DNA of 64,000 nt from Streptomyces sp. DG2A-72. Its GTDB lineage: Bacteria > Actinomycetota > Actinomycetes > Streptomycetales > Streptomycetaceae. Location: positions 8,518,001-8,582,000 of the forward strand of contig NZ_JASTLC010000001.1 of the NCBI RefSeq assembly GCF_030499575.1, read 5' to 3'. A program made the translations under genes and the position numbers. The stretch's first letter is position 1, and the number at the start of each line of letters is the position of its first letter. The notes beneath the pieces were generated by a model that saw only the letters and a list, made by a program, of their open reading frames with translations, did no database searches and was not told the origin of the DNA. This document shows, piece after piece, positions 11,551 through 37,386 of the stretch.

Positions 11551-11775
11551 GCTTAGCCGTACGGCTACTTGAGCTCCGGCCGGGAGGGACGGCTCCCGGT
11601 CGGTAGCCGTGGACCCCACCAGGGTCCGCGGCGGCCGTCGCCGGGGTGCGCATGGACGTGCGCGCCCCGGAACGGTCTCCGTCCCCTTCCCCCAACGGTC
11701 CCGCACGACCGCGCATCACCTCCTTGAAACCCACGTCAGAGCCGACGTGCTGTCAACCGACCGGAGGAGCCGCCC

Positions 11776-13143: not shown

Positions 13144-13152
13144 ACCGGGGCG
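13134..13152. terminator. Short hairpin between convergent genes
   Basis: CGCCCC (13134-13139) can pair with GGGGCG (13147-13152) across the stop codon of the permease gene. The stem is only six base pairs, so function as a terminator is tentative. Confidence 0.3.
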
Positions 13153-13165
13153 CGCGTCGAGGAAG

Positions 13166-13762: not shown

Positions 13763-13863
13763 GGAGTGGGAGCTTCCCAGGTGGCCGGCCTTCCCGCATC
13801 CGGATTCCGCCGAGACCGTCACCGGGACCCGCCCTCGCGACGAAGAGCCCCAATCCGTCGCAG

Positions 13864-15303: not shown

Positions 15304-15359
15304 GGCGGTCCGGCCTCCGTATTCTCCGTGAGTCTCCATGGACCCATAGGTGCACGTCT

Positions 15360-15373
15360 TGTAACGGGGTACA
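15360..15373. promoter_or_regulatory. Possible HxlR operator between MFS pump and regulator
   Basis: TGTA (15360-15363) and TACA (15370-15373) form an inverted repeat with a six-base centre in the 110-bp divergent promoter region. HxlR/DUF24 regulators bind GTAC/TGTA-type repeats in such positions. Short arms make this tentative. Confidence 0.35.
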
Positions 15374-15413
15374 TCGTGGGTGACCATGGAGGTGGGGGTA
15401 AGGAGGCAGTTCG

Positions 15414-22977: not shown

Positions 22978-24480
22978 GTGGAACGCCTGGACCTCATGCC
23001 CCCGCCCGCCGCCGACGACCCGTCGGCACGCGCTGACGCGTATGCGGCGGCCCCGCTGCTGAACTGCCTGCTGCGGGAGGTGGCACAACGGGTACCCGGC
23101 GAGCGGCGGGTGTACCGGCTGCCCGGTCTTGACCGCCTGTTGCGGGTGCGCGGGGAGCGCCGGCCCACAGAGCCCGAGCTGTACGTCGGCGGCACCTGGC
23201 AGCGACTCGGCCACACCGAGCTGGTGAAGCTCGTCGCCGAGGAGCTGACCCGGCACACGGGCCTGTCCAACCACGAACTCCCCGCCGAGATGACCGACAG
23301 CCGTGACGCCGTGGCCGCCCTGCTCACCGCGCGCGCCCGCACGACCGCGCCCGACGACCCGTATCTGCGCTCCGAGCAGTCCCTGATCACCGGCCACCCC
23401 TATCACCCCGCCCCCAAGGCGCGCGGCGGCGGTCCGGCCACCGGCTGGCTGCCGTACGCCCCCGAGGCCCACGCCGCCTTCCCGCTGGTGCTGCTCGGCG
23501 TACGCGAGGACTCGGTCGTCGAGGAGGGCGATACCACCGCCCTCGACACCCTGGGCGAGGCGCCGCCCGGCTACCGGCTGCTGCCCGCCCACCCCTGGCA
23601 GCTCGACCTTGTCGGCCACGACCTCGCCCCGGCCTTCGCGGACGGCCGGCTGATCCGGCTGGGCACGACCCCGTTCCCGGCCCGGCCCACGGCCGCGATC
23701 CGCACGGTCTACGCGCCCGACCGCGACCTCTTCCTGAAGTTCAGCCTCGATGTGCGCATCACCAATGACGTACGCCGGCTCTGGCGCCACGACCTGCTGA
23801 CACTGCGCCGCACCGACACGGCCGTGACACAGGCCTTCGCCGCGATCGACGGCCCGGCGGCCTGGCTGACCGACCGCGGCTACCGCACCGCCGGCTTCGC
23901 CTTCGAGGAACTCGCCGTCCTGGTCCGCGACGGACTGCGTGCGCACTTGGTGCCCGGCACGACCCCGCTGCTCGCCGCCGGGCTCGTCGAAGGCTTCGCG
24001 GGCAGCCCACTCGACGGCACCGACGATCCGGCGGGCTGGTGGGAGGCCTATCTGCGCCAGGTGGTCCCACCGGTGCTGGCCGCCTTCGCCGACCACGGCG
24101 TCGTACTCGAAGCGCACCTGCAGAACACGCTGGTCGCCGTCGACGCCGACGGCACGCCCGTGCAGGCGCTGTTCCGGGACGCCGAGGGGGTGAAGCTGCT
24201 GGCGGACGTGGAGCGGGACGCCGGGTGGGAGCGGCTGGTGTACTGCCTGGTCGTCAATCACCTGTGGGAGATCGCCGCGGTCCTCGCGGAACGCCACCCC
24301 GGCCTCGACCCCTGGCCCGCCGTACGCGCCGAACTCTCCCGGCACGACCTCCCCGAGATCGCCGCCCTGCTCACCGCGCCCAGCCTCCCCGGCAAGACGA
24401 ACCTGCTGCTGCGCTGGACGGGCGCGGACGGGGCCGACGCCCGCTATCTGCCACTGCCGAACCCGCTGGCCCTTACGTGA
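22978..24480 (+). CDS. IucA/IucC-family NIS siderophore synthetase (second)
   Basis: A 500-residue NIS synthetase. The same landmarks appear: TGHPYHPAPKARGG, LLPAHPWQLDLVG, IRTVYAPDRDLFLKFSLDVRI, followed by LEAHLQNTLVAVD, ALFRDAEGVKLL and the terminal YLPLPNPLAL. The GTG at 22978 has only a weak GGGAA site. Divergent from the first synthetase, an arrangement that ensures co-regulation. No decarboxylase, monooxygenase or acyltransferase lies immediately adjacent, so the amine substrate must come from elsewhere. The PLP-enzyme operon 3-7 kb downstream is a candidate source (inference). Confidence 0.92.
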   Translation: MERLDLMPPPAADDPSARADAYAAAPLLNCLLREVAQRVPGERRVYRLPGLDRLLRVRGERRPTEPELYVGGTWQRLGHTELVKLVAEELTRHTGLSNHELPAEMTDSRDAVAALLTARARTTAPDDPYLRSEQSLITGHPYHPAPKARGGGPATGWLPYAPEAHAAFPLVLLGVREDSVVEEGDTTALDTLGEAPPGYRLLPAHPWQLDLVGHDLAPAFADGRLIRLGTTPFPARPTAAIRTVYAPDRDLFLKFSLDVRITNDVRRLWRHDLLTLRRTDTAVTQAFAAIDGPAAWLTDRGYRTAGFAFEELAVLVRDGLRAHLVPGTTPLLAAGLVEGFAGSPLDGTDDPAGWWEAYLRQVVPPVLAAFADHGVVLEAHLQNTLVAVDADGTPVQALFRDAEGVKLLADVERDAGWERLVYCLVVNHLWEIAAVLAERHPGLDPWPAVRAELSRHDLPEIAALLTAPSLPGKTNLLLRWTGADGADARYLPLPNPLALT

Positions 24481-24561: not shown

Positions 24562-25407
24562 TCACTCGCCGTCGGAGCCACGCGGGAGCCGGACCAGGTT
24601 CAGCCGGTAGTCCTCGACCTGGGGAAGTCGCTGGGCGGCGAGGCCGGTGACCATCTCCTGGACGGGGGCCGGGAGTTCGTCGTACATCGGGGCAGGGAGG
24701 CTGCTGAACGTGTCGGAGGCCAGTACGTCGACTCCCGGTCGCCACTCGGCGAGCCGTGCCGGATCGGCGCAGCTCCACTGCATCCGGGCGTCGACCTTGC
24801 CGAGTGAGCCGGGCTGGTCCTGCGTGTCGAAGTGGCCGGGGCCGGAGGTGTCGAGGGCCAGCAGGGAGCCGGGAAAGCGGTCGGCGAGCAGGTCGATGAC
24901 GTCGCGGACGTCCGCCTCCTCGAGGTAGGGCAGAACGGCTTCGGCGGCGAAGAGGTACGGGCCGCCGGATTGCGCGGCGACGGTGTCCGCCCAAGCCTTG
25001 TCCGTCACCGACGTGGCGATCATCGTGCGGCGTGGTGTGTCGGTGAAGAAGGTGCGGCGCAGTTCGATCACGTCGGGCAGGTCGAGCTCGAACCAGCGGG
25101 CCTGGCCGTTGTCGGTGCGTTCGTAGCGGGTGTTGAGGCCGGTGCCGATCTCCACCACGGTGCCGGTGGGATGTTCGGCGAGGAAGTCCGTCACCCAGCG
25201 GTCGAACAGGCTGGTGCGCAGGACCGTGCCGAGCAGCATCGGCAGGCCGTCGAAGCGGGCGAAGTCGTAGTCGATCGCCGCGACGAGTTCCTCGGCGACC
25301 GCGTCGCGCAGGACCGCTTCCTTCTTGCGGTTCTCCACCGCCCGGCCGTACAGCGGGATCAGCAGGGTTTCCTGGACCGTGCCCAGGCGTACGTCGCGCT
25401 CGGTCAT
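24562..25407 (-). CDS. LCM/PPM-family SAM-dependent O-methyltransferase
   Basis: A 281-residue protein of the leucine carboxyl methyltransferase-like family. VVEIGTGLNTRYERTD is the SAM-binding loop, followed by WFELDLPDVIELRR (acidic loop), then YLFAAEAVLPYLEEADV and DARMQWSCADPARLAEW. Bacterial members usually methylate carboxylates of small molecules or act in natural product pathways. The ATG at 25407 has GGAGG with spacing of five. It converges with the NIS synthetase at 22978. A decayed relative lies at about 31.7-32.0 kb. Confidence 0.87.
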   Translation of the reverse strand: MTERDVRLGTVQETLLIPLYGRAVENRKKEAVLRDAVAEELVAAIDYDFARFDGLPMLLGTVLRTSLFDRWVTDFLAEHPTGTVVEIGTGLNTRYERTDNGQARWFELDLPDVIELRRTFFTDTPRRTMIATSVTDKAWADTVAAQSGGPYLFAAEAVLPYLEEADVRDVIDLLADRFPGSLLALDTSGPGHFDTQDQPGSLGKVDARMQWSCADPARLAEWRPGVDVLASDTFSSLPAPMYDELPAPVQEMVTGLAAQRLPQVEDYRLNLVRLPRGSDGE

Positions 25408-25504
25408 GACCGCCTCCACAGTCCTCGGGCCGCGACGTACGCTATATGAAAATGGGATCCATTAACAAGAGTGCGGCGCCGTCGTATGGGGCGACGGCGC
25501 CGCA

Positions 25505-25840
25505 CTACTCCTGCGCGTGCCGGATGGCGTCCAGCACGATGTGGGCGATGTGGTCGTCGGTGAGGCCGTACTGGATCTCGCGCGCCTGGCGGCGGGTCGT
25601 CACGATCCGGGAGTTGCGCAGGACCCGCAGATGCTGCGAGACCAGCGGCTGGCTCACCCCGAGGGCCGCGACCAGTTCGTGGACGTACTTTCCGCCCTCG
25701 GACAGCTCGCGCACGATGCCGAGGCGGACGGGGGAGGCCAGCGCCTTCAGCAGGTCGCTGGCGGCCTCCAGGGCGCGCATCGGTCCGTCCGCCGGGGTTG
25801 TCGAGGGGGAGGAGTCATCGTCACATGCATATGTTAGCAA
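25505..25840 (-). CDS. ArsR/SmtB-family metal-responsive repressor
   Basis: A 111-residue winged-helix regulator: SDLLKALASPVRLGIVREL, YVHELVAALGVSQPLVSQHL, VLRNSRIVTTRRQAREIQYGL, ending with DDHIAHIVLDAIRHAQE. The last helix carries Asp, His, His and Glu residues at positions used by alpha5-type zinc sensors (SmtB/CzrA), so zinc or cobalt sensing is plausible. The longest start is TTG at 25840. An ATG at 25783 before RALEAASDLLK is the alternative. A CATATG element and a Zur-like box lie at its start. Confidence 0.85.
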   Translation of the reverse strand: MLTYACDDDSSPSTTPADGPMRALEAASDLLKALASPVRLGIVRELSEGGKYVHELVAALGVSQPLVSQHLRVLRNSRIVTTRRQAREIQYGLTDDHIAHIVLDAIRHAQE

Positions 25841-25856
25841 GTGACAATGATTTCCG
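25828..25856. promoter_or_regulatory. ArsR-type CATATG element and Zur-like box
   Basis: CATATGTTA (25828-25836) is repeated as TAACATATG at 26265-26273 beside the His-rich gene and the ArsR fragment. CATATG-centred palindromes are typical ArsR/SmtB operators. TGACAATGATTTCCG (25842-25856) matches 12 of 15 positions of the actinobacterial Zur consensus TGAAAATGATTTTCA. Together they suggest dual metal control of this block. Confidence 0.5.
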
Positions 25857-25894: not shown

Positions 25895-26197
25895 TCAGTG
25901 GTCGTCCCAGTGGCCGTCGTGCGCGGCGTGGCGGTGGCCGTCGTGCACGTAGTCCACGTGGTCCTCGTGCGGCACGGCCACGTGGCCGCAGCCCTCGCCG
26001 TGCTGGTGGTCGTGGCCCTCATGGGTGGCGTGGCCGGCGCTCGCGCATTCGTCGACGTGGCCCTCGTGGGTCTTGTGGAGGTGGCCGTCGTGCGCGTAGT
26101 CGATGTGGTCGCCGTGCGGGATGGCGACGTGGCCGCAGCCCTCGCCGTGGGTGTGGGTGTGGTCGTCGTGTGTGCGGTGCGCGGTGGCGGTGGTCAT
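25895..26197 (-). CDS. His-rich metal-binding protein with internal duplication
   Basis: A 100-residue cytosolic protein, close to one third histidine. It consists of two near-copies of a unit beginning HGEGCGHVA: residues near 19-47 read HGEGCGHVAIPHGDHIDYAH then DGHLHKTHEGH, and residues near 68-97 read HGEGCGHVAVPHEDHVDYVH then DGHRHAAHDGH. The Cys in GCGH plus many His suggests zinc, nickel or cobalt binding, as a buffer or chaperone. The ATG at 26197 has GAGGAG upstream. It lies between an ArsR gene and an ArsR fragment, and in a zinc-uptake neighbourhood. Confidence 0.8.
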   Translation of the reverse strand: MTTATAHRTHDDHTHTHGEGCGHVAIPHGDHIDYAHDGHLHKTHEGHVDECASAGHATHEGHDHQHGEGCGHVAVPHEDHVDYVHDGHRHAAHDGHWDDH

Positions 26198-26262
26198 GTG
26201 GTGCTCCTCGTGGTGCTCTCCGTTGCCTGCGGCTCGTGCTCCGCGGGCCGTGCGTGGCCACA

Positions 26263-26488
26263 TTAACATATGGCAACTCGCGCATGTGTTGTGAGAAGTG
26301 CACCTCGTGTGGCCACGGTCGGCTCCCGTGGGTCGGGCCGGTCGTCGTAGAGGCGGTAGACGATACGGCGGCCGTCGCGTTGCCCGGTGACCAGGCCCAG
26401 GGCGCGCAGGAGCCGCAGTTGGTGGGAGCCCGCGGACTGCTCCATGCCGATGGCGGTGGCGAAAGGCGTCGGGCGGGCGTCAGTTCTT
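26263..26488 (-). pseudogene. Fragment of a second ArsR-family regulator
   Basis: The frame directly upstream of the His-rich gene reads PFATAIGMEQSAGSHQLRLL, then RALGLVTGQRDGRRIVYRLY. This is the DNA-binding core of an ArsR/NmtR-type repressor. The N-terminal dimerisation part is missing (a TGA precedes the fragment and it overlaps the end of the methyltransferase gene at 26480), and the C-terminal metal-binding helix is replaced by unrelated sequence (DPREPTVATRGA). I judge it a truncated relic. Confidence 0.65.
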
Positions 26489-27250
26489 CAGTGCGGCGAG
26501 GACATGGCTGTCGCCGAACTGCCAGACGGGCGTGACGTGAGGGAAGCCTGCCTGCCGCAGCAGCTCGATGTGGTGGGTCAGCGTCAGGCCGTTGTCGCTG
26601 CCGCCGACGTTGCGGAGCTCCGACTGGCGCTGCTCGCGTCGGGTGACCAGGTCGGCCAGTTCGGCGTCCTGTGCGGCCGCGTTCCACCAGGACGTCCAGT
26701 CCTCGTGGCGGCACGTGTGTGAGCGCCTGGCGCGGCTGTTGCCGACGTGTGCGGTGAGGGCGGCGCAGCAGGGGTCGGCCTGGGTGAAGTGGTCGCCGTT
26801 GATGAGGGCGCCGCCGGGGCGCAGTAGTGCGGCGATGTGCTGGTAGGTGCGCAGTAGGACCGGTTCGGGGAGGTAGTGGAGGGCCGTGGTGGAGACGGCC
26901 GCATCGAGGGGGCGGTCCAGGCCGAGGGCGTCGGTCCATCCGTCGTCACCGATCACGGTGTCCACATAGCGTGCCGCGTTCGCATGGTGGGTGCGGCCGA
27001 GTTCCAGGAGCAGGGGGTCCATGTCGACGGCGACGATCTCTGCCCGCGGTAGCCGTGCGGCGAGCCTGGCGGCCAGGGAGCCCGGGCCGCAGCCCAGGTC
27101 GAGGATCAGCGGATGTGCGCGGTCGGCCGTCACGTGCTCGACGGCGTCGGCGATCACGGTGAACCGCTCTTCGCGGTCGGTGGCGTAGTGCTCCTGCTGG
27201 AGTTCCCAGCGTTCCACCCACAGCTTGGCTGTCGCCATGCTCACGCCCAT
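26480..27250 (-). CDS. Class I SAM-dependent methyltransferase
   Basis: A 256-residue methyltransferase. Motif I is ILDLGCGPGSLAARLAAR, motif II has the acidic EIVAVDMDPLLLEL, then DAAVSTTALHYLPEPVLL and LRPGGALINGDHF for motifs IV and VI. The substrate is unknown. The ATG at 27250 has GGAAGAGG upstream. An in-frame ATG at 27238 is the alternative. A perfect 7-bp-arm palindrome resembling a Zur box lies about 60 bases upstream (27307-27321). It follows the PLP-enzyme operon by 85 bases on the same strand and likely belongs to the same pathway. Confidence 0.85.
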   Translation of the reverse strand: MGVSMATAKLWVERWELQQEHYATDREERFTVIADAVEHVTADRAHPLILDLGCGPGSLAARLAARLPRAEIVAVDMDPLLLELGRTHHANAARYVDTVIGDDGWTDALGLDRPLDAAVSTTALHYLPEPVLLRTYQHIAALLRPGGALINGDHFTQADPCCAALTAHVGNSRARRSHTCRHEDWTSWWNAAAQDAELADLVTRREQRQSELRNVGGSDNGLTLTHHIELLRQAGFPHVTPVWQFGDSHVLAALKN

Positions 27251-27306
27251 CGGCTCGTGCGCCTCTTCCGTTTCTCACCCGGCAGTGCTGTTCCTCAATC
27301 TACAGG

Positions 27307-27321
27307 TGGAAACGGTTTCCA
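27307..27321. promoter_or_regulatory. Perfect palindrome resembling a Zur box
   Basis: TGGAAAC-G-GTTTCCA is a 15-base perfect palindrome with 7-base arms. It matches 11 of 15 positions of TGAAAATGATTTTCA, with the conserved outer TG..CA intact. It lies just upstream of the methyltransferase start. Confidence 0.45.
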
Positions 27322-27335
27322 TTCGCATCGTCCGC

Positions 27336-28538
27336 TCAGAGAGTGCCGAGGACGGACAGCAGGCGGTCGATCTCCTCCGCGGTGTTGTAGACGTGCAGGC
27401 TTGCCCGCACCGAACCGGCCTGGTGCTCCGCGCCGGCCTGGCACAGGCTGTCCGCCCTGACCATGAATCCGTGACTGAACAGGATGAACCCGAGGTCGTC
27501 GGAGGGGATTTCGCGGTGCCGGAAGGTGACGATGCCGTGCCGCCGTTGCACGGTGGAGTCGGCTGCCAGACTGGCCTGGCAGCCCAGGATCTCGTAGGCG
27601 GCCAGGTGGCGGAGCCGGTCGGTCAGCCGGGCCGTGAGGGCGGTGGTCCAGCGTGAGATCCGGTCAGTGCCCGCGGCGTCCAGCCAGTCGAGCGCGGCTT
27701 CGAGGGTGGCGATGCCGACAGTGTTGGGGGTGCCGTGCCAGCCGCCGGGCCGGAACCGCGGCCCGCGTGCGTTGCGGGCCCAGACGGCTCCGGAGCCGGG
27801 CAGGGCCAGTGCCTTGTGCCCCGAGAAGACCACGAAGTCCACGTCGAGTTCGGTCACGGACAGGGGCAGATGGCCGATGCTCTGGGCCGCGTCGAGACAG
27901 ATCGGCACGTCGGGACCGACGACCTCCCGGATGCGGTGGACGTTCATGTCTCCGCCGTAGACATGGTGAATGTGCGTGGCGGCGACGAAGCGGGTGCGCG
28001 GGCCGACCATCCCGGTCAGGGCCCGGTGGTCGTAGTCTCCGGAAGCCGTCTGGTACGGCAGGGCACGCAGGTGCACGGTGATGCCCCGCTGTTCGAGCAA
28101 CCGCTGGGTCTCCAGCCAGGGTTCCAGGTTCGCCTGGTGGTCGGCGAAGGGGACGAGGATCTCGTCGCCGTCGGTCAGCAGGTCGGTGAGCCAGTCGCGG
28201 GCGACGGCCCGCAGCCCCTCCGTGGTGCCGCTGGTGAAATGGACACCGGAGCGCTCGGGCGCGGGGTCGTCGAGGCAGTCCTTGACGCGCTGCCGGGTGC
28301 GTTCCGCCATCGCCGTCGTCCGGTTGGCCCACGGGTAGGTGCCCCGCCCGGCGTTGGCATTGGACGTCGTCAGATACGTCTGTGCGGCGTCGAGGACGGC
28401 GCGTGGCTTCTGTGAGGTGGCCGCGCTGTCCAGAAAGACCAGCTCCGGGTGTCCGGTGATGATGGGGAACTGCTCCCGCAGCTCCCGCTGCCAGCCGGCC
28501 AGCTCGTGCAGTTCGTTGCTGAGTTCCTCGTGGAGCAT
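27336..28538 (-). CDS. Class V aminotransferase / cysteine desulfurase-like PLP enzyme
   Basis: A 400-residue fold I PLP enzyme of the SufS/CsdA-like group. Landmarks are ELVFLDSAATSQKPRAVLDA, VHFTSGTTEGLRAVA, ATHIHHVYGGDMNVH, ICLDAAQSIGHLPL (PLP-contact Asp) and the Schiff-base lysine in DFVVFSGHKALALPGSGAVW. The SufS active-site Cys loop RSGHHCAQP is replaced by a FMVRADSLCQAGAEHQAG segment, which still has a Cys. It may release sulfur or act as an aminotransferase or epimerase-like enzyme in a biosynthetic pathway. The start is six bases after the upstream gene, so it is translationally linked. Confidence 0.85.
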   Translation of the reverse strand: MLHEELSNELHELAGWQRELREQFPIITGHPELVFLDSAATSQKPRAVLDAAQTYLTTSNANAGRGTYPWANRTTAMAERTRQRVKDCLDDPAPERSGVHFTSGTTEGLRAVARDWLTDLLTDGDEILVPFADHQANLEPWLETQRLLEQRGITVHLRALPYQTASGDYDHRALTGMVGPRTRFVAATHIHHVYGGDMNVHRIREVVGPDVPICLDAAQSIGHLPLSVTELDVDFVVFSGHKALALPGSGAVWARNARGPRFRPGGWHGTPNTVGIATLEAALDWLDAAGTDRISRWTTALTARLTDRLRHLAAYEILGCQASLAADSTVQRRHGIVTFRHREIPSDDLGFILFSHGFMVRADSLCQAGAEHQAGSVRASLHVYNTAEEIDRLLSVLGTL

Positions 28539-28543
28539 CGGGG

Positions 28544-29899
28544 TCAGTCCCGGACCAGTGGGGCGCCCGCGTCCCGCCAGGCGACGATGCCGCCGGACAG
28601 GCTGCGCACGTCCGGATGGCCCATGCGGGTCAGTAGCGCGGCGTAGCGGGCGGACTTCTCGCCGACCGGGCAGGCCAGCAGCACCGGCTGTCGCTTGCTG
28701 AACGGCAGGCCGCCGCGTACGAGTTCGCCGAACAGCTCGTCCACGATGTTGACCGATCCGTCGATGTGGAGCGCGGCGTACGCCTGCGGTCCGCGCAGGT
28801 CGATCACCAACGGCCGCGGCTGCCCGTCCATGATCCATCGCCGGGCGTCGTCGGTGTCGACAACCTTGGCCTGCGCCTGTACTTCGGCGTCGGTGAGGGC
28901 CGCCGCCGAATTCTTCTGGGGCGGCCTGCCCAGGAGTTCGGGTCGGCGTTGCCGTACGTAGCTCAGATAGCTCTCGGCTCGGTCGCAGACGATGAAGACC
29001 GCTGTCCGGCGGTTCGCCGGTCCCGGCTCCGTCCCTGACTCTTCCAACTCCGCGTCCACGGTGCGCAGATGTCGTACCGCGCCGTGATAGGCGGCGCCTC
29101 CGGTGGGCCCGGCCAGCAGTCCGCAGCGGCGGATCAGGGTCAGCATGCCGTCGATGGCCTCATCGGCGGTCACCGACTCCATCGTGTCGTACGTTGCCGG
29201 GTCGAAGAGTCCGACCTGGTGGACCTCGTCGATGGTGCGGATGCCGGGGATGAAGTCCGACTTGTGGGCGACCAGTCCGACCACCTGTACCCCGGGGTCC
29301 TGGTCGCGCAGTGCCCGGGCCACCCCGGTCGACGAACCGGCTGTGCCCACGCAGGCGATGAACCAGTCCGGTGCCCGCCCGCCCAGGTCCTTGACGATCT
29401 CCGGTCCTGTGCCCACCGCGTGCGCCTCGGTGTTGCGTGGGTTGAAGTACTGGTTGGTGTGCAGATACGCGTTGCCGTCCTCGGCGAGGGCCTGGTGGAA
29501 GCGGGTCAGCGGGTCCTCGGTGTCGGTCGGGTCGAGGCACTCGCTCTGCCCCGGCAACTCCTCGATCTCCGCGCCCAGCAGCAGAAGCAGGTCCTTGATC
29601 TCCGGCACCCGCATGCGGTTGGTGACGCTCTTGAAGCGCAGCCCGTACATCCCCGCGAGCAGGGCCAGGGCCTTCGCGGTGTTGCCGCTCGACAGTTCCA
29701 CGACTGTCGCGCCGCGCTCCGCCGCCTCGGCCAGACCGGGGCGCGCCATGTTCCACGCGGCTCGGTCCTTGACCGAGCCGAAGGGGTTGAGCATCTCCAG
29801 CTTGGCGTACAGGTCGATGTGGCGCAGGCCGTGCACGGCCTGATCGATGCGTACCAGCGGAGTGTTTCCGATGGCTTCCGTGATGCTGTCGTACCTCAT
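28544..29899 (-). CDS. Cysteine-synthase-like PLP enzyme fused to a rhodanese domain
   Basis: A 451-residue two-domain protein. Residues 1-320 are a fold II PLP synthase: ITEAIGNTPLVRID, PFGSVKDRAAWNMA (PLP lysine), VELSSGNTAKALALLAG (Asn contact), CVGTAGSSTGVARAL (phosphate loop) and LAGPTGGAAYHG. Residues 345-451 are a rhodanese domain: PLVIDLRGPQAYAALHIDGS, then PVLLACPVGEKSARYAALL with Cys in the active-site loop. Fold II relatives such as SbnA and the Rhizobium y4xP product (recalled) make non-protein diamino acids or cysteine analogues. The start overlaps the upstream stop (ATGA). Confidence 0.88.
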   Translation of the reverse strand: MRYDSITEAIGNTPLVRIDQAVHGLRHIDLYAKLEMLNPFGSVKDRAAWNMARPGLAEAAERGATVVELSSGNTAKALALLAGMYGLRFKSVTNRMRVPEIKDLLLLLGAEIEELPGQSECLDPTDTEDPLTRFHQALAEDGNAYLHTNQYFNPRNTEAHAVGTGPEIVKDLGGRAPDWFIACVGTAGSSTGVARALRDQDPGVQVVGLVAHKSDFIPGIRTIDEVHQVGLFDPATYDTMESVTADEAIDGMLTLIRRCGLLAGPTGGAAYHGAVRHLRTVDAELEESGTEPGPANRRTAVFIVCDRAESYLSYVRQRRPELLGRPPQKNSAAALTDAEVQAQAKVVDTDDARRWIMDGQPRPLVIDLRGPQAYAALHIDGSVNIVDELFGELVRGGLPFSKRQPVLLACPVGEKSARYAALLTRMGHPDVRSLSGGIVAWRDAGAPLVRD

Positions 29900-31506
29900 G
29901 ACACCGGTCCTCCCGGCCGCTTGACCGGCCAGTACTCCTCGTCCGGACACCAGCGCCAGGAGTCCCCGTCGCGTACGACGGCGACCGTCCGTGCGATCGG
30001 CTGCCGCTGTGCGCGGTGAGCGTGGAAGTCCATCGCGTAGCCCGCGGTGTTGGCGAACCCCAGCAGATCGCCGGCATGTGGCAGCCGGGGCAGGAACACC
30101 TTTCTGCGGGTGATCAGGTCGGCCTCCAGGCACAGATTCCCGACCAGGTAGACCCCCACCCGCCCGTCGGCGCTCACGTCGTCCGTTCCGGCCGTTCCGG
30201 TACGGGGGAGAAGGACGGGATCGACGAGCACGCCGTGCTCCTCCAGGCTCACGTCGCCGGCGTTCATGCCGAGGCGCACCAGGAGGTCACCGGAATCCTG
30301 GCCGGCACGGCGCACGTCGAGCACCCGCGCCAGCGAGAGCCCGCACTGGTCGACGAGCGCGCGGCCCGGTTCGCAGTACAGGTCGTAGAGGTGCTCCAGG
30401 AGGAGGGTGGCCAGTGGGCGGCCCGAGGAGGGGGCGGGGTGGGAGAGGAGTTCGTCGAGATACCCCGGTCCGGCCGTGGGGCGGTGGGCCGGATAGAGCG
30501 CCGGGTTCCCGCGGAGGGTGCCGCCTTCGTTGCGCAGGCCGTAGCCGTGTCCGCGCCAGGTCAGGGCGGGGCGGGTGCCCAGCACCGCGTTGGCCAGCTC
30601 GGTGGTGTAGCGCTGCCACTGGCCGGCGTCCGCGAGATAGCCGACCCCGAATCCGCCGCCGATGTCGATGACGCGCGGATCCAGTCCGCGGGCGCGGCAC
30701 TCGTCCATGACCGCGACACACTGCTCGAGCGCGGCGGCCTTCTCCGGCAGGCCGGTGGTGTCCAGGTGATAGGCGACCCCGGTCAGCCGGACCGCGTCCT
30801 GGTGTCGTTCGACCGAGTCGAGCAGAGCACCTACCTCCTGCAACGGTGTGCCGAAGCGGCTGCGGCGCGAGAGCATCTTCACCCCGGAGGCACCCGGGCC
30901 GGTGGCTGCCTCGAACCCTGACAGCCGCAGTAGGACATCGGCCCGGGGCAAGGCGAACTCTCGTATGAGCATGGCCAGTTGTTCGAGCTCGCCAGGCGAG
31001 TCGATGTTCATCGTGACGCCGGTGAGGGCGGCGAGCCACAGGAAATCCGGGTCCTTCGGGCCGGTGGCCATGATCCTGTCCGGGCTGACGCCGCATCCCA
31101 GGACGTGTTGCAACTCGCCCAGCGAGGCGACGTCGACGCCGACCGTCGAGGGTTCGGCCGCCGCCAGTCGGCGCACCAGGGAGCTGGACTGGTTCGCCTT
31201 GTGCGCGAAGTACACCCGGCCGGTGAGGTGGTGCTTGCGGTAGACGCTGTGGAATCCGTCGGCGTTCTCGGCGATCCGGTGGGGCAGCAGCACATTGAGC
31301 GGGGAGCCGAGGGCGTCGACGAGGGAGTGCAGGAAGGGCACGTCGTCCATTAGCGAGCTGAGCGGTGGTTCCAGTCGTGGTTGCAGATACAAGGGCACAC
31401 GCACTACAGGCCCCTCCCCGTCCACCGGCGGCTGCGGCTCCCGGCGGTCGAGCGACCCCGCCGGGGGCACCGGCAACCGCTCGGACAACCGTTCGTGGAT
31501 CATCAT
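29896..31506 (-). CDS. Y4yA-type PLP-dependent decarboxylase (fold III, DAPDC/ODC family)
   Basis: A 536-residue fold III PLP enzyme. The alanine-racemase-like barrel shows VYFAHKANQSSSLVRRLA (PLP lysine), VGVDVASLGELQHVL, LDTTGLPEKAAALEQ, VIDIGGGFGVGYLAD and LYCEPGRALVDQCGLSLARV, with later VYLVGNLCLEADLITRR containing the active-site Cys and GYAMDFHAHRAQRQ. It belongs with diaminopimelate/ornithine decarboxylases and with SbnH, which decarboxylates a diaminopropionate adduct. First gene of the three-gene PLP operon. The start codons (31506 or 31503) overlap a weak Zur-like sequence (31497-31511, 10 of 15 matches). Confidence 0.88.
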   Translation of the reverse strand: MMIHERLSERLPVPPAGSLDRREPQPPVDGEGPVVRVPLYLQPRLEPPLSSLMDDVPFLHSLVDALGSPLNVLLPHRIAENADGFHSVYRKHHLTGRVYFAHKANQSSSLVRRLAAAEPSTVGVDVASLGELQHVLGCGVSPDRIMATGPKDPDFLWLAALTGVTMNIDSPGELEQLAMLIREFALPRADVLLRLSGFEAATGPGASGVKMLSRRSRFGTPLQEVGALLDSVERHQDAVRLTGVAYHLDTTGLPEKAAALEQCVAVMDECRARGLDPRVIDIGGGFGVGYLADAGQWQRYTTELANAVLGTRPALTWRGHGYGLRNEGGTLRGNPALYPAHRPTAGPGYLDELLSHPAPSSGRPLATLLLEHLYDLYCEPGRALVDQCGLSLARVLDVRRAGQDSGDLLVRLGMNAGDVSLEEHGVLVDPVLLPRTGTAGTDDVSADGRVGVYLVGNLCLEADLITRRKVFLPRLPHAGDLLGFANTAGYAMDFHAHRAQRQPIARTVAVVRDGDSWRWCPDEEYWPVKRPGGPVS

Positions 31507-31689
31507 TTCCCGTTACATGTGTCCTTAAGCCATGGCCTGGCTTTGTGATGAGGTCGGCGACTGATCTCATCCGCATCCAGCCGCCTGACGGGCGTGGCGC
31601 CGATCCGCACGGGCCGTGGCGGGGTGGACGAGAGATTCGCGCAGCGTGCGTGCCCGGACCCACTCCTCGGCAGCGTCGCACCCAAGTGA
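31507..31689. other. Promoter region of the PLP operon
   Basis: The 180 bases upstream of the Y4yA-type gene contain inverted repeats GATGAG and CTCATC at about 31541-31570 but no clear -10/-35 pair. The following 580 bases to the aztA stop hold the methyltransferase relic and otherwise nothing I recognise. Confidence 0.35.
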
Positions 31690-32030
31690 CCCGGTAGCCG
31701 TCACCGCCCGACGGGCGCCCCGGGCCGCCGTACGAGGTCGTGCATCGGTCGCGGGAGACTGCTGAGGGAGTTGTGAGGCGAGTACCGTCAGCCCCGGTAG
31801 CCACTCGGCGAGCTCGTCCGGCCGGTGCAGGACCACTGCATCCGGGCGTCCACCTCGCGGTGTCCAGGGCCGGCAGGGAGCCGGGGAAGCGGTCGAAGCC
31901 GCCGCCGAGCGCCTGTGACAGTGCCGCCTCGCGCGGCGAGCCCGGTCAGCAGCGCCAGTGCGGCAGCGGGTACTTGTATCCGTCGGAGGTCCCAGGTCGT
32001 GTCGGGGGCAGTCCGTCGCGGCGCGCTCAC
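31690..32030 (-). pseudogene. Relic of an LCM-family methyltransferase
   Basis: Three minus-strand frames carry recognisable pieces of this family in order: GGGFDRFPGSLPALDTA (compare LLADRFPGSLLALDTSG in the intact gene at 24562), then VDARMQWSCTG (compare VDARMQWSCADP), then DELAEWLPGLTVLASQLPQQ (compare ARLAEWRPGVDVLASDTFSS). The frame changes and missing N-terminal SAM loop show that the gene is dead. Outer limits are approximate. Confidence 0.65.
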
Positions 32031-32272
32031 CTGCGTGACCGAGCCCGGCAGTGCCGGCACGCATGCTGGGCACCAGGGCAGGGCCGCATCCGCGGCCGGG
32101 GTCACTTCTGTGGCCTCTCAGGTCCTGTGTCATCGGCCTGCGGTGTTCGGCCCGGTCGCCTTCATGCCAACCGCATGGTCGTTTCGGCACGCACGGCACC
32201 GGCGCCACCCTGGCGCATGTGACAGCGCGATGTGAGCACCGTTTTGCCGCGAGACATGAACTGGCCGCCAGG

Positions 32273-33016
32273 TCAGGCCGGTTGCCAGATCTGGGCGAGC
32301 GTCAAGGGGGTGAGGAGTTGGGCGGGGTCGCCTTGTTCCACCACGTGGCCGTCGCTGAGCAGGAGGCAGGTGTCGGCTGAGCGCGCGGCTTCGAGGTCGT
32401 GCGTGGCCTGGACGACGGTCACCCCGTCGGCGACGAGCTCCGTCAGCAGCGCGGCGATCCGGTCCCTTGCCCCGGGGTCGAGACCAGTGGTCGGCTCGTC
32501 CAGGAGGAGCAGGTCCGACTCCTGGGCAAGGCCCTGGGCGATCAGCGCGCGTTGCCTTTGCCCGCCGGACAGTTCCCCGAGTTGGCGGGGGGCGAGGTCG
32601 GTGATGCCCAGTCGCTCCATGGCCGTGTCCACGGTGGCGTGGTCCTGCCGGGTCAGCCGACGCCACGGCCCGCGTTCGCCCCAGCGCCCCATCTCCACCG
32701 TCTGCCTTACGGTCAGCGGCAGCGCGTCACCGACGGCGCCGCGCTGCGGGACGAACGCCGACGGCCGGTTGCCGACGTGACGGAGCTCGCCTGATGTGGG
32801 CCGAATCACTCCGGCCAGCACTCCGAGCAGGGTGGACTTCCCGCTGCCGTTCGGGCCGACGAGTGCCGTGATGGCCAACGCCGGTATCTCGGCGTCGAGT
32901 TGATGGAGGACGGTGCGGCCCGGGTAGCCGGCGGACAGCCCGGTGAAGCGGACGCGGGGCGTCCCGCCCTTGGCAACGGCGGGGGAGACCCCCTGTTTTT
33001 TGAACATGATTTTCAT
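32273..33016 (-). CDS. aztA: Zinc ABC transporter ATP-binding protein AztA
   Basis: A 247-residue ABC ATPase: Walker A in ALVGPNGSGKSTLLGVLAG, Q-loop SAFVPQRGAVGD, signature LSGGQRQRALIAQGL, Walker B DLLLLDEPTTGLDP and the H-loop ATHDLEAA. It energises the AztB permease. The start is ATG 33016 or ATG 33007. Neither has a ribosome binding site and both overlap the Zur box, so the transcript is probably leaderless or nearly so. It is divergent from aztB with only 16 bases between them. Confidence 0.9.
   Translation of the reverse strand: MKIMFKKQGVSPAVAKGGTPRVRFTGLSAGYPGRTVLHQLDAEIPALAITALVGPNGSGKSTLLGVLAGVIRPTSGELRHVGNRPSAFVPQRGAVGDALPLTVRQTVEMGRWGERGPWRRLTRQDHATVDTAMERLGITDLAPRQLGELSGGQRQRALIAQGLAQESDLLLLDEPTTGLDPGARDRIAALLTELVADGVTVVQATHDLEAARSADTCLLLSDGHVVEQGDPAQLLTPLTLAQIWQPA
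33001..33015. promoter_or_regulatory. Zur box between aztA and aztB
   Basis: TGAACATGATTTTCA matches the actinobacterial Zur consensus TGAAAATGATTTTCA at 14 of 15 positions. It covers the aztA start codons and lies 17 bases before the aztB start. TAGTCT at 33019-33024 is a plausible aztB -10 box ending eight bases from its ATG. Zinc-loaded Zur bound here would block both directions. Confidence 0.85.
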
Positions 33017-33032
33017 CGTAGTCTGTTGACCC

Positions 33033-33890
33033 ATGGAGTGGTTGACAGGTCCCTTCGAGGTGACCTTCGTGCAAAGGGCGCTGTGGGGCGGGATGTTGGT
33101 GTCGGCGATCTGCGCCCTGGCCGGCACGTGGGTGGTGCTCAGGGGGATGGCCTTCCTCGGCGACGCCATGTCGCACGGGCTGTTGCCCGGAGTCGCGCTC
33201 GCCGCACTGCTCGGCGGCAACCTGCTGGTGGGGGCGCTGCTGAGCGCGGCCGTCATGACGGCCGGCGTCACCGTCCTCGGCCGCACCCCGAGGCTGTCCC
33301 AGGACACCGGGATCGGCCTGCTGTTCGTGGGGATGCTGTCGCTCGGCGTCATCATCGTCTCGCGCTCGCAGTCCTTCGCGGTCGACCTGACCGGGTTCCT
33401 CTTCGGTGACGTCCTCGCCGTCCGGGAGCAGGACCTGGTGCTGCTGGGCGTGGCGCTGCTGCTGGCGCTGGTCGTCTCGGTCCTCGGCCACCGGGCCTTC
33501 CTCGCCCTGGCTTTCGACCCGCGCAAGGCGCAAACGCTCGGCCTGCGCCCGCGCCTCGCTCATGCGGTGCTGCTCGGCCTGCTGGCGCTGGCCATCGTCG
33601 CCTCCTTCCACATCGTGGGCACGCTGCTGGTCCTGGGTCTGCTCATCGCCCCGCCGGCGGCCGCGCTGCCCTGGGCGCGCAGCGTGCGGGGTGTCATGGC
33701 CCTGGCGGCGCTGCTCGGCATCACCGCCACCTTCTGCGGCCTGTTGCTGTCCTGGCACTTGAGCACCGCGGCCGGCGCGACCATCTCGGGCCTCGCGGTG
33801 AGCCTGTTCTTCCTCTCCCACCTGGCATCCGGTCTCCGCCACCACCGCCGTGCGCGCCTCGCCGGTGCTCACGCCGCGGCCCCTCACTGA
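33033..33890 (+). CDS. aztB: Zinc ABC transporter permease AztB (ZnuB/TroC type)
   Basis: A 285-residue membrane protein with about eight or nine helices. ABC-3 family landmarks: TWVVLRGMAFLGDAMSHGLLP (the metal-transport permease signature), LSQDTGIGLLFVGMLSLGVI, and ASFHIVGTLLVLGLLIAPPAAA. It forms the zinc channel with AztA. The ATG at 33033 follows the -10 box closely, suggesting leaderless translation. The stop overlaps the next start (TGATG), so the following lipoprotein is co-translated. Confidence 0.92.
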   Translation: MEWLTGPFEVTFVQRALWGGMLVSAICALAGTWVVLRGMAFLGDAMSHGLLPGVALAALLGGNLLVGALLSAAVMTAGVTVLGRTPRLSQDTGIGLLFVGMLSLGVIIVSRSQSFAVDLTGFLFGDVLAVREQDLVLLGVALLLALVVSVLGHRAFLALAFDPRKAQTLGLRPRLAHAVLLGLLALAIVASFHIVGTLLVLGLLIAPPAAALPWARSVRGVMALAALLGITATFCGLLLSWHLSTAAGATISGLAVSLFFLSHLASGLRHHRRARLAGAHAAAPH

Positions 33891-35137
33891 TGGAAGAGGC
33901 GATCCCCTTGTTCGTCCGCAGAAACGCCACTGCTTGGGTGCCCACCGCGCTCGTGGCCCTCTGTCTGCTCACCACGAGCTGCGCGGGTGCGGACGACACC
34001 GCGTCCGCCCCGAGGACGACTCCCCCGGCCTCTGCTCCGCACGGGTACGTCGCAGGGGCACAGGAGAAGGCCGAGCAGCAGTCGCGGCTGGTGCTCAACG
34101 ACCCGAGGTCCGGGGACACCCGGGTACTCGATCTGATCACCGGCAAGGTGCACGAGGTGTCCCGGACCGCGGGCACCACGGAACTGACCACGGACGGCCG
34201 GTTCGGCTACTTCCACACCGCGGGCGGCACGCGCGTGCTCGACGGCGGCGCCTGGATGGTGGATCACGGCGACCATGTCCACTACTACCGCGCGGCGACA
34301 CGTGACGTGGGCGAGCTGCCCGGAGGTCCGGGCACCCGTGTCCGCAGCGATGCCGCCGTGACAGCGGTGACCGACGAGGGCGGCCGGGCCAGGGTCTACC
34401 GCCGGGCCGAACTGGAGAAGGGCAAGGTCGGCTCCGCCCGCACGCTTCCCGGCACGCACGCGGGAGCTGTCGTGCCCTACGCGGAGCACCTGCTCGGCGT
34501 CACGGACGGCGGGAAGGTCGCGGTGTACGACCGCCAGGGCAAGCGGGCCGCGTCGCCGGACGCCCGGTGCGAGGAGGTGCGGGGCGATGCAGTCACCCGG
34601 CGCGGAGTCGTCCTCGGCTGTGCCGACGGCGCCCTGCTCGTCCGTGAGGCCGACGGCACCTTCACCGCCGAGAAGATCCCGTACGGCAGCGGCGTACCCG
34701 AAACGGAACGGGCCACGGCCTTCCGGCACCGGCCCGGCAGCGACACGCTCACGGCAGCCGCCGGGGAGCGGGCCGTGTGGGTCCTGGACGTCACCGAGCG
34801 CACGTGGACACGGGTGAAGACCGGTTCCGTCACCTCCGCCAACACCGCGGGAGAGGGTTCCGTCCTGATCTCCCTGGAGACCGACGGGGCACTCCACGGC
34901 TACGACATCGCCACCGGCAAGCAGGTCTCCAAGACGAAGCCGCTTGTGACGGGCGCCCCCGGGACCGGTACCGACGGGAACGTGGAACCGGTCGTCGAGG
35001 TCGACCGCAGCCGCGCCTACCTCAACGATCCCAAGGGCAGACGCGTGTACGAGATCGACTACAACGACAACCTGCGTGTGGCGCGCACCTTCGACCTGGA
35101 CATCGAGCCGGCGCTGATGGTGGAGACCGGACGATGA
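33890..35137 (+). CDS. aztD: AztD-like zinc chaperone lipoprotein (first paralogue)
   Basis: A 415-residue exported lipoprotein with the lipobox LTTSC at about residue 31. The remainder is a WD/YVTN-like beta-propeller built from repeats such as RVLDLITGKVHEVSR, VAVYDRQGKRAAS, VWVLDVTERTWTRVK and LHGYDIATGKQVSKT. The metal-binding segment GAWMVDHGDHVHYYRA (about residue 120-135) fits the His-rich zinc site of AztD, the periplasmic chaperone that hands zinc to AztC. Overlaps aztB and aztC, so all are one operon. Confidence 0.85.
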   Translation: MEEAIPLFVRRNATAWVPTALVALCLLTTSCAGADDTASAPRTTPPASAPHGYVAGAQEKAEQQSRLVLNDPRSGDTRVLDLITGKVHEVSRTAGTTELTTDGRFGYFHTAGGTRVLDGGAWMVDHGDHVHYYRAATRDVGELPGGPGTRVRSDAAVTAVTDEGGRARVYRRAELEKGKVGSARTLPGTHAGAVVPYAEHLLGVTDGGKVAVYDRQGKRAASPDARCEEVRGDAVTRRGVVLGCADGALLVREADGTFTAEKIPYGSGVPETERATAFRHRPGSDTLTAAAGERAVWVLDVTERTWTRVKTGSVTSANTAGEGSVLISLETDGALHGYDIATGKQVSKTKPLVTGAPGTGTDGNVEPVVEVDRSRAYLNDPKGRRVYEIDYNDNLRVARTFDLDIEPALMVETGR

Positions 35138-36093
35138 CGAGACAGACGCAACAGTCGCGGCGGCTGCGCACCCTCCTGCTGGTCCTGCTCATCCTCGCCC
35201 TGGCCGGTGCCGGCACCGGCTGTACGAGCAGCGACGAGCGCCCACGGGTCGTGGTGACGACCAACATTCTGGGCGACATCACGCAGGAGATCGTCGGCGA
35301 CGAGGCCGCTGTCACCGTGCTGATGAAGCCGAATGCCGACCCGCATTCCTTCGGGCTGTCGGCCGTGCAGGCCGCCGAGTTGGAGCGTGCCGACCTCGTG
35401 GTCTTCAACGGGCTGGGCCTCGAGGAGAACGTACTGCGGCACGTGGACGCCGCCCGCGAGGCAGGAGTGGCCACGTTCGAGGCCGGCGAAGCGGCGGACC
35501 CCCTCACCTTCCAGGCGCATGACGACGGAGGACCCGAGGAGGAGGCCGGGCAGCCCGATCCGCACTTCTGGACCGACCCCGACCGCGTCCGCAAGACCGT
35601 GGGCCTGATCGCCGACCGGGTCGTCGAGCACGTCGACGGCGTGGACGAGAAGGTGGTCCGCGCCAACGCCGACCGCTACGACGCGCAACTCGCCGACCTC
35701 ACCGCCTGGATGGAGAAGTCCTTCGACCGCGTACCCGAGCAGCGGCGCGCGCTGGTGACCAACCATCACGTCTTCGGCTACCTCGCCGACCGCTTCGGAT
35801 TCCGGGTCATCGGCGCGGTGCTCCCGAGCGGTACGACGCTGGCCTCGCCCAGCTCCTCCGACCTGCGCTCACTCACCCAGGCCATGCGGACGGCAGGCGT
35901 ACGAACCGTCTTCGCCGACTCCTCCCAGCCCAAACGGCTGGCCGAGGTCCTGCGCACGGAGATGGGCGGCGGCGTGCGCGTCGTCGAGCTCTACTCCGAG
36001 TCCCTGACCGAGAAGGGGAAGGGCGCCGGCACCTACCTGCAGATGATGCGCGCCAACACCACCGCCATGACCGACGGCCTGACCGGCGCCTGA
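35134..36093 (+). CDS. aztC: Zinc ABC transporter substrate-binding lipoprotein AztC
   Basis: A 319-residue cluster A-I (ZnuA/TroA-like) binding protein with lipobox AGTGC. Zinc ligands fit the family: His in KPNADPHSFGLSAVQ, His in QPDPHFWTDPDRVR, His in LVTNHHVFGYLADRFG and the acidic FADSSQPKRLAEVLR near the C-terminus. The flexible loop has HDDGGPEEEAGQPD. It delivers zinc to AztB. The ATG at 35134 overlaps the preceding stop (ATGA). The inner spacing to the second AztD-like gene is 93 bases. Confidence 0.93.
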   Translation: MTRQTQQSRRLRTLLLVLLILALAGAGTGCTSSDERPRVVVTTNILGDITQEIVGDEAAVTVLMKPNADPHSFGLSAVQAAELERADLVVFNGLGLEENVLRHVDAAREAGVATFEAGEAADPLTFQAHDDGGPEEEAGQPDPHFWTDPDRVRKTVGLIADRVVEHVDGVDEKVVRANADRYDAQLADLTAWMEKSFDRVPEQRRALVTNHHVFGYLADRFGFRVIGAVLPSGTTLASPSSSDLRSLTQAMRTAGVRTVFADSSQPKRLAEVLRTEMGGGVRVVELYSESLTEKGKGAGTYLQMMRANTTAMTDGLTGA

Positions 36094-36186
36094 ACCAGCG
36101 CCCCTGACGTGGAAAACGGCCGACCGGCCGTTCAAGCACACCCGCACCCACTGCCGCGCCCGCGCGGCACAGAAAGGAACAGACCG

Positions 36187-37386
36187 GTGAACAAGCCGAT
36201 ACGCACCAAAGCATTCACGGGCACGGCCCTCATCCTGGCGGCCTCCGCGGTCCTGACCGCCTGTGGAGGAGAGGACACCTCGTCGTCCGACACGAAGGCC
36301 AAGAACGCGCCGAACACCAAGGCCGTAGCGGTCAAGGACCCGCTCGTCGCCACGTTCGACGGCGGCCTGTACGTCCTGGACGGCGAGAGCCTGAAGCTCG
36401 CCAGCACGATCGAGCTGCCCGGCTTCAACCGCCTCAACCCCGCCGGCGACGACTCCCACGTCATCGTCTCCACCGACGCCGGTTTCCGCGTCCTGAACGC
36501 CGCCGAACAGAGCTTCACCGGCATCGAATACAAGGGTGCCAAGCCCGGCCACGTGGTACGGCACGCCGGCAAGACGGTCCTGTTCACCGACGGCACCGGC
36601 GAGGTCAACGTCTTCGACCCCGACGACCTCGAAGGCGGCAAGAAGCCGCAGGGCCGCACCTACACCTCCGCCGAGCCGCACCACGGCGTCGCCATCGAAC
36701 TGAGCACCGGCGAACTCCTCAGCACCCTCGGCACCGAGGAGAAGCGCACCGGCGCCCTCGTCCTGGACAAGAACGACAAGGAGCTCCAGCGCAACGAGAA
36801 GTGCCCCGGCGTCCACGGCGAGGCCGCGGCCAAGGGTGAGGCCGTCGGCATCGGCTGCGAGGACGGCATCCTGATCTACAAGGACGGCAAGTTCACCAAG
36901 GTCGACGCCCCCGACGACTACGGCCGCATCGGCAACCAGAGTGGCAGCGACGTATCGCCCGTCCTCCTGGGCGACTACAAGACCGACCCGGAGGCCGAAC
37001 TGGAGCGGCCGACCCGCATCTCCCTCATCGACACCGAAACCGCGAAACTGCGCCTGGTCGACCTGGGCACCAGCTACTCCTTCCGCTCCCTCGGCCGCGG
37101 ACCCCACGGCGAGGCACTCGTCCTCGGCACGAACGGAACCCTCCACGTCATCGATCCCGAGACGGGCAAGGTGGACAAGAAGATCCCCGTCGTGGGCGAA
37201 TGGCAGGAGCCGCTGGACTGGCAGCAGGCCCGGCCCACCCTCTTCGTCCGCGACCACATCGCGTACGTCTCCGAGCCGGGCAAGCGCAAGCTGCACGCCG
37301 TCGACATCGAATCGGGCAAGAAGGTCACGTCCGTGACCCTGCCGAAGAGCACCAACGAACTGTCCGGCATCGTCGCCGGCCACTGA
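36187..37386 (+). CDS. AztD-like beta-propeller lipoprotein (second paralogue)
   Basis: A 399-residue lipoprotein with lipobox LTAC and a beta-propeller of repeats like GGLYVLDGESLKLAST, DAGFRVLNAAEQSF, NVFDPDDLEGG, GTLHVIDPETGKVDKK and KLHAVDIESGKKVTS. It aligns in length and order with the first paralogue but lacks the DHGDHxH metal segment, which here reads SFTGIEYKGAKPGHVVRHAG. The GTG at 36187 has AAAGGA upstream. It may have lost zinc transfer, or binds another partner. Same operon as aztBC. Confidence 0.85.
   Translation: MNKPIRTKAFTGTALILAASAVLTACGGEDTSSSDTKAKNAPNTKAVAVKDPLVATFDGGLYVLDGESLKLASTIELPGFNRLNPAGDDSHVIVSTDAGFRVLNAAEQSFTGIEYKGAKPGHVVRHAGKTVLFTDGTGEVNVFDPDDLEGGKKPQGRTYTSAEPHHGVAIELSTGELLSTLGTEEKRTGALVLDKNDKELQRNEKCPGVHGEAAAKGEAVGIGCEDGILIYKDGKFTKVDAPDDYGRIGNQSGSDVSPVLLGDYKTDPEAELERPTRISLIDTETAKLRLVDLGTSYSFRSLGRGPHGEALVLGTNGTLHVIDPETGKVDKKIPVVGEWQEPLDWQQARPTLFVRDHIAYVSEPGKRKLHAVDIESGKKVTSVTLPKSTNELSGIVAGH

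Follow-up and report, generated by a model that had tools for sequence, protein, structure and literature searches.

A zinc-starvation locus of Streptomyces that joins an AztABCD zinc importer to a recurrent four-gene operon for a candidate zinc chelator

As Zur-controlled metallophores, the pertinent part of a review (PMC6103462) names coelibactin, ethylenediamine disuccinate (EDDS) and pseudopaline, and it presents [S,S]-EDDS of Amycolatopsis japonicum as a Zur-controlled aminopolycarboxylate made for zinc. According to the portion of PMC12751119 that deals with them, aspergillomarasmine A synthetase and Fda4 (Fusarium poae) couple O-phosphoserine to the amine of an amino acid. The locus described here lies in a 64-kb stretch of DNA (the window, in whose positions all coordinates are given) from the 10.6-Mb genome of Streptomyces sp. 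DG2A-72. There, genes of an AztABCD zinc importer adjoin a core of four genes: a Y4yA decarboxylase, a PALP-rhodanese fusion, a SufS-like enzyme (these three being pyridoxal phosphate, or PLP, enzymes) and a methyltransferase (MT). This is a real, recurrent zinc-starvation unit, and it does not include the genes of the NIS (nonribosomal-peptide-synthetase-independent siderophore) type that lie close by. On balance we favour, with about even confidence, the reading that the Zur-controlled importer works alongside an operon making an amino-acid-derived zinc chelator.

On the minus strand, from 33016 downward, run aztA, a 767-bp gap, the genes for Y4yA, PALP-rhodanese, the SufS-like enzyme and MT, and then those for a His-rich protein, an ArsR regulator and an LCM methyltransferase; the plus-strand order is aztB, an AztD-like gene, aztC and aztD. 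An earlier reading of this DNA (the original prediction) had listed three PLP enzymes, a methyltransferase, a His-rich protein and an ArsR regulator, and all of them are present. Its complete AztABCD system holds as to content, AztA, AztB, AztC and AztD each exceeding the respective NCBIfam cut-off, but the arrangement differs, in that aztA is a minus-strand gene, oriented like the PLP genes and divergently from aztBCD. The core, the importer and the predicted Zur sites are as follows.

29896 to 31401, minus strand: Y4yA-family PLP fold-III decarboxylase; longest open reading frame (ORF) to 31506 (Orn_Arg_deC_N 100 bits; nearest relatives named Y4yA family)
28544 to 29899, minus strand: PALP (cysteine-synthase-like) enzyme with C-terminal rhodanese fusion (PF00291 188 bits, PF00581 58 bits)
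27336 to 28538, minus strand: SufS-like PLP enzyme of class V that has the desulfurase Cys (Aminotran_5 234 bits; best PDB match SufS, 159 bits)
26480 to 27250, minus strand: S-adenosylmethionine methyltransferase (MT), fourth core gene (Methyltransf_25 60 bits)
32273 to 33016, minus strand: aztA, zinc ATP-binding cassette (ABC) ATPase, divergent from aztB (NF040873 271 bits, cut-off 220; ABC_tran)
33033 to 33890, plus strand: aztB, zinc ABC permease (NF040871 376 bits, cut-off 280)
35134 to 36093, plus strand: aztC, zinc-binding protein (NF040870 400 bits, cut-off 350)
36109 to 37386, plus strand: aztD, zinc metallochaperone, likely start 36187 (NF038015 482 bits, cut-off 400)
33001 to 33015, no strand: predicted Zur box TGAACATGATTTTCA in the aztA/aztB gap, overlapping the likely first aztA codons (one mismatch to TGAAAATNATTTTCA; score 23.7, the window's best)
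27307 to 27321, no strand: Zur-matrix site TGGAAACCGTTTCCA (minus-strand reading) before MT (score 19.7, third best of the window)
25842 to 25856, no strand: Zur-matrix site TGACAATGATTTCCG before the ArsR gene (score 20.9)
25447 to 25461, no strand: Zur-matrix site TGAAAATGGGATCCA before the LCM methyltransferase gene (score 17.0, fourth best of the window)

The true start of Y4yA is probably near 31401, with the first 35 or so codons of the longest frame being leader DNA, because its relatives align from about residue 30–38.

The PALP-rhodanese fusion was found in 35 of 150 sampled genomes of the same genus and in 5 of 396 sampled across the phylum, 2 of these 5 being of another genus. Conservation was followed through 36 comparison loci (about 20 kb around the fusion, from 34 other genomes of the genus together with Streptomyces spongiae and S. 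albus); a scan of named genomes for Y4yA gave three loci only, and L037 (22 percent identity, from a candidate-division metagenome-assembled genome) was excluded from all counts. All 36 show the order Y4yA, PALP-rhodanese, SufS-like, and a full-length MT follows the trio in 34, the others being L042, where the fetched sequence stops short, and L053, which holds a fragment. The catalytic residues are intact as well: throughout the 41 aligned sequences Y4yA keeps its active-site Lys, His, Cys and Tyr (and the Glu of EPGR in 40), the fusion its PLP Lys44, Arg221 and rhodanese Cys410, and the SufS-like enzyme Cys366 and Lys242. These counts come from MAFFT alignments of tblastn stretches rather than curated proteins, and three Y4yA stretches with one in-frame stop each (L042, L043, L136) were kept; in L043 the alignment ran past the gene's own end, and in L136 the Y4yA reading frame is split at 9032/9045. 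Besides a trio at 57–69 percent identity, L136, from another genus, has a Fur-family gene close to a perfect TGAAAATGATTTTCA; its methyltransferase is a different one, preceded by the site TGAACATCATTTTCA. L137 and L138 represent a second, more distant cluster type in which the trio enzymes are kept.

To look for the link to zinc, a 15-bp Zur matrix was trained on 33 boxes, 16 of them distinct, that precede znuA-family and L31 genes in 14 genomes; the loci under test contributed no box, and the weakest one scores 21.2. These training boxes agree with the 7-1-7 palindrome tGaNNatSatNNtCa that the relevant part of PMC5472717 gives as the Zur motif of S. coelicolor. The near-consensus box claimed beside azt was borne out: TGAACATGATTTTCA is one of 6 sites in the whole genome within two mismatches of the consensus, a control pattern giving none, and the four top matrix positions of the window are those before aztA/aztB, ArsR, MT and LCM. 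Upstream of MT, in the gap that separates it from the SufS-like gene, a score of at least 12.8 (a threshold picked after the scores were known) was reached in 37 of 38 loci, the exception being L069 with 10.2. Independently of any threshold, the site in that gap holds the locus's top rank in 28 of the 38 loci and a rank of five or better in all of them. Forty arbitrary 20-kb control loci from the same genomes, 796 kb in total, yielded only 3 positions at or above 12.8, and hence about 0.02 such sites would be expected in the 38 MT gaps.

A site placed in this way might also mean that zinc governs MT only, the PLP trio being an unrelated constitutive pathway that precedes it, and in 34 of 37 loci a strong site before MT indeed goes with a weak one or none before Y4yA. 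We hold this to be quite improbable, since MT is kept with the trio in 34 of the 36 loci and Zur-regulon neighbours flank the entire unit. MT as a unit free of the trio was likewise rejected, its stray copies lying at contig ends (L148, L149) or being broken (L152, L153) or distant.

Genes of the kinds that the relevant part of the review PMC6103462 lists for the Zur regulon flank 11 of 39 core loci, whereas they flank 1 of 40 controls (Fisher p 0.0015, which like the other locus and genome p values given here is optimistic because the loci and genomes are related); excluding the window and L148, the count is 9 of 37. In eight loci they are CobW and copies of ribosomal protein genes, and in three they are azt genes, the three azt-linked loci showing three different arrangements. 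The linkage of the PLP genes with azt recurs in L043 and also in L148, whose contig holds just the end of the core. Of the 39 core loci, 9 (the window among them) have a relative of the His-rich gene next to the core, 4 the ArsR gene, and 9 a GNAT acetyltransferase (e.g., L039:13015-13575), which could acetylate the operon product; each is absent from the 40 controls. In L048, L049 and L059 a counterpart of TGACAATGATTTCCG separates the His-rich gene from the ArsR gene, so that all four ArsR-bearing loci, the window among them, carry a matrix site there. The site before MT and the Zur-regulon neighbours uphold the link to zinc that the original prediction had drawn.

The same neighbours lend themselves to another explanation, namely that the operon spares zinc inside the cell by replacing a zinc-dependent step or by yielding a non-chelating metabolite, with no secretion involved. 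Zinc-free ribosomal protein copies and CobW do adjoin several loci, and no exporter is conserved beside the core across the 36 loci of the cluster table. A decarboxylase together with a methyltransferase, however, resembles small-molecule synthesis, an unlinked importer described below co-occurs with the core, and we know of no zinc enzyme that the four core enzymes would replace; zinc sparing therefore seems unlikely to us.

The remaining features of the neighbourhood are these.

25895 to 26269, minus strand: His-rich protein, likely start 26197 (repeated GEGCGHVAVPH motif; relatives beside the core in other loci)
25505 to 25840, minus strand: ArsR/SmtB-family metalloregulator, possible start 25780 (NF033788 84 bits, cut-off 55; HTH_5)
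24562 to 25419, minus strand: LCM-type methyltransferase, possible further Zur target (PF04072 48 bits; its relative in L068 adjoins a site scoring 13.4)
22978 to 24480, plus strand: NIS synthetase B, neighbour outside the conserved unit (IucA_IucC 126 bits)
21347 to 22882, minus strand: NIS synthetase A, neighbour outside the conserved unit (IucA_IucC 103 bits)
33890 to 35137, plus strand: AztD-like lipoprotein, a second weak copy (NF038015 67 bits, under the cut-off of 400)
31737 to 31933, minus strand: LCM-methyltransferase-like remnant between aztA and the PLP genes (matched in two frames by the LCM protein of the window in tblastn, E 8e-9 inside this gap)

The small His-rich protein (25895-26197) had no Pfam or NCBIfam match; it carries a duplicated GEGCGHVAVPHxDHxDYxHDGHxH motif and is likely a zinc-binding protein travelling with the operon. 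Two reading frames were rejected as genes: that at 31567-32208, which is without a Pfam match and lies in a region resembling a decayed methyltransferase, and an ABC-transporter-like frame opposite aztB, which is merely the 5-prime overrun of aztA. Individual loci show further variation. In L137 (another genus) a 429-amino-acid protein with a C-terminal heavy-metal-associated domain (L137:5022-6311) is encoded between Y4yA and the SufS-like gene, and in L041 and L044 a pair of ABC half-transporters, one CydD-like but below cut-off, lies directly upstream of Y4yA on the same strand, accompanied in L044 by a YcaO gene. In L152 Y4yA and MT remain and PALP-rhodanese is lost, while in L153 a truncated MT with its box and a His-rich gene stands beside a Zur-boxed ZnuA-type gene; such decaying copies suggest that the core unit is both gained and lost.

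The two NIS synthetases had been drawn into the pathway on account of their distance of 2-5 kb, which would make the PLP genes part of a staphyloferrin-B-like zinc chelator pathway, a notion to which the match of the PLP enzyme classes with the sbn cluster adds some appeal. Both are present at the positions listed, but their membership of the pathway unit was rejected. Of 39 loci, only the window has the pair next to the core; NIS-B occurs in 89 of the 150 genomes of the genus, both with the core (26 of 35) and without it (63 of 115; Fisher p about 0.05); it lies from about 180 kb to several Mb away from the core in genomes whose contigs allow a distance to be given; and no matrix site scoring at least 12.8 was found upstream of the window's NIS genes. 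A chelator pathway of this composition is hence very improbable.

The enzyme plan of the core itself suggests what might be made without them. Aspergillomarasmine A synthetase (PDB 8h4h, 8h4q) is the sole full-length fold match of the fusion among those listed, covering model residues 1-451, and the earlier idea of a chelator based on a diamino acid draws support from the domain plan that the fusion shares with this enzyme and Fda4. Arg221 of the fusion aligns with an Arg of CysM from Mycobacterium tuberculosis that has a role in phosphate binding. The likeness to SbnA, on the other hand, is weaker than had been claimed: the enzyme classes are those of sbn, but the PALP domain scores higher against the cysteine synthase model cysKM (168 bits) than against SbnA (TIGR03945, 142 bits, cut-off 350), all its NCBIfam matches being below cut-off.

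The same enzymes could be arranged as a sulfur relay, in which sulfur, taken from cysteine by the SufS-like enzyme, would pass through the rhodanese to PALP, which would build a sulfur amino acid to be decarboxylated by Y4yA and methylated by MT; the product would be a thiol or thioether made for zinc shortage, whether as a ligand or in another role. Cys366 of the SufS-like enzyme and the rhodanese Cys410 (in a CPVGE.S loop) are kept in all 41 sequences, even in the distant paralogues L137 and L138, and the three enzymes stay together in that second cluster type too. CysM is closest to PALP by sequence, and the nearest solved structures of the class V enzyme are of SufS, as is its nearest NCBIfam model (TIGR01979, 236 bits, below the cut-off of 475). 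Yet the characterised PALP-rhodanese proteins form C-N bonds, a desulfurase acting with a cysteine synthase would run a futile cycle unless the acceptor were unusual, and catalytic residues may persist for other reasons, so that we regard a sulfur relay as somewhat unlikely.

Transport bears on both the chelator and its alternatives. As had been noted, neither an exporter nor an SbnB-type dehydrogenase was recognised in the window, and the core holds no SbnB. Beside the core of L043 and L068, both loci with strong matrix sites, lie FecCD and Peripla_BP_2 genes. Elsewhere in the window's genome, at about 7.51 Mb, an ABC importer of the SBP5 type (L164, G000:C1:7508000-7520000, 852-5800), presumably Nik/Opp/Cnt-like, has a Zur box scoring 26.9, and such a box is present in all eight loci examined. 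A close copy of this importer occurs in 28 genomes (at least 74 percent identity, the next best being 57, with the cut chosen after the list was seen), 15 of the 35 with the core and 13 of the 115 without it (p 1e-4, uncorrected for kinship). This trend persists among genomes with and without the cluster L165 (p 0.05 and 0.01, again uncorrected for kinship).

That cluster is one of two others in the genome that have Zur-type sites. In L163 (G000:C1:10154000-10170000, 7908-15385) a Zur box scoring 29.6 precedes an operon for a methyltransferase-like protein, an SbnA-type PALP (best model SbnA, 129 bits, below cut-off), DUF364, a major facilitator superfamily (MFS) exporter, proteins that are FecCD- and FecE-like by eye, and Peripla_BP_2; by its gene content it looks like a complete zincophore cluster. 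L165 (G000:C1:8649000-8661000, 6130-11983), about 75 kb past the window's end, has a Zur-type site scoring 20.0 upstream of genes for an ATP-grasp protein, DUF364, an SbnA-type PALP (best model SbnA, 242 bits, below cut-off) and an MFS exporter; close relatives of its PALP occur in 40 of the 150 genomes of the genus. We take both clusters to be nearer to the EDDS gene plan than the core is.

The favoured reading, that of an importer joined to chelator synthesis, draws on what was computed, namely the gene content, the conservation of the unit, the site before MT, the Zur-regulon neighbourhood, the intact catalytic residues and the domain plan, and from these we infer the reactions, the product, its secretion and re-uptake, and the control of the three PLP genes by Zur. 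When zinc is plentiful, Zur would occupy the boxes and keep at least aztAB and MT silent, and when it runs short expression would follow. The PALP-rhodanese fusion would then link O-phosphoserine with the amine group of another amino acid, in the manner of aspergillomarasmine A synthetase and Fda4, to give a conjugate of the 2,3-diaminopropionate type; Y4yA would take off a carboxylate, like SbnH in staphyloferrin B, and the SufS-like enzyme and MT would tailor the conjugate. The product would return zinc through an importer, for which the unlinked Zur-boxed SBP5-type system is the best candidate, and Azt would take up the zinc so freed. A more specific version, possible but on the doubtful side, is that the operon is a bacterial, Zur-controlled counterpart of fungal marasmin synthesis, in which PALP-rhodanese would build an aminopolycarboxylate resembling aspergillomarasmine, Y4yA and a zinc-gated MT would finish it, and the SBP5 importer would take up the result, a zincophore of a new class.

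Several observations weigh against this chelator reading. The desulfurase Cys and the rhodanese Cys, conserved in all aligned sequences, suggest a sulfur chemistry for which the model has no use. The full-length fold match to aspergillomarasmine A synthetase has a root-mean-square deviation of 20, and the PALP sequence matches CysM better (121 and 116 bits) than it matches that enzyme (88 bits), a profile search likewise giving 150 and 140 for CysM versus 116; the shared PALP-rhodanese fusion may therefore be convergent. As regards control by Zur, 34 of the 38 MT-gap sites score lower than the weakest training box, the 12.8 threshold was set with the scores in view, the window has no convincing box before Y4yA (best score 0.1), and a site of at least 12.8 stands there in just 3 of 37 loci (L042, L068, L070). 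The kinship of the loci flatters the p values, and 28 of the 39 core loci are without a Zur-regulon marker. No exporter linked to the core was recognised in the window, the SBP5 importer tends to occur together with the L165 cluster as well (p 0.004, uncorrected for kinship), and the L163 and L165 clusters could themselves be the strain's zincophores, served by that importer.

No paper on the four-gene operon was found in the open PubMed Central (PMC) literature, mostly judged from listings, and the terms metallophore, cysteine synthase and decarboxylase are absent from the S. fredii zinc paper (PMC7029138). If true, the chelator reading would add a common and compact Zur-controlled metallophore that needs neither nonribosomal peptide synthetase nor NIS genes, would tie an enzyme plan known from fungi to zinc uptake in bacteria, and would give a first testable role to the enzymes of the Y4yA family, which are present in relatives but have no substrate stated for them. 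One genome with three different Zur-boxed PALP clusters also makes a comparison among them possible.

Set against the known systems, the locus shows both shared and differing features. All four proteins of the AztABCD system are matched; here aztA is divergent, a further weak AztD-like protein is encoded, and the system is joined to a biosynthetic unit. With the SufS cysteine desulfurase the class V enzyme shares the catalytic Cys and Lys, but unlike SufS it falls below the model's cut-off and is located with PALP-rhodanese and Y4yA rather than with suf genes. The staphyloferrin B pathway (SbnA, SbnB, SbnH and NIS synthetases) resembles the core in combining a PALP enzyme with a fold-III decarboxylase, and it is a precedent for a decarboxylated chelator derived from diaminopropionate; it differs in that the core is without SbnB, its linkage to NIS genes is not conserved and its PALP stays under the SbnA cut-off. 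Aspergillomarasmine A synthetase and Fda4 are fungal, and the part of the literature consulted on them describes neither a Zur site nor a Y4yA decarboxylase or SufS-like enzyme, but in both a PALP domain is followed by a rhodanese in one chain, as it is here.

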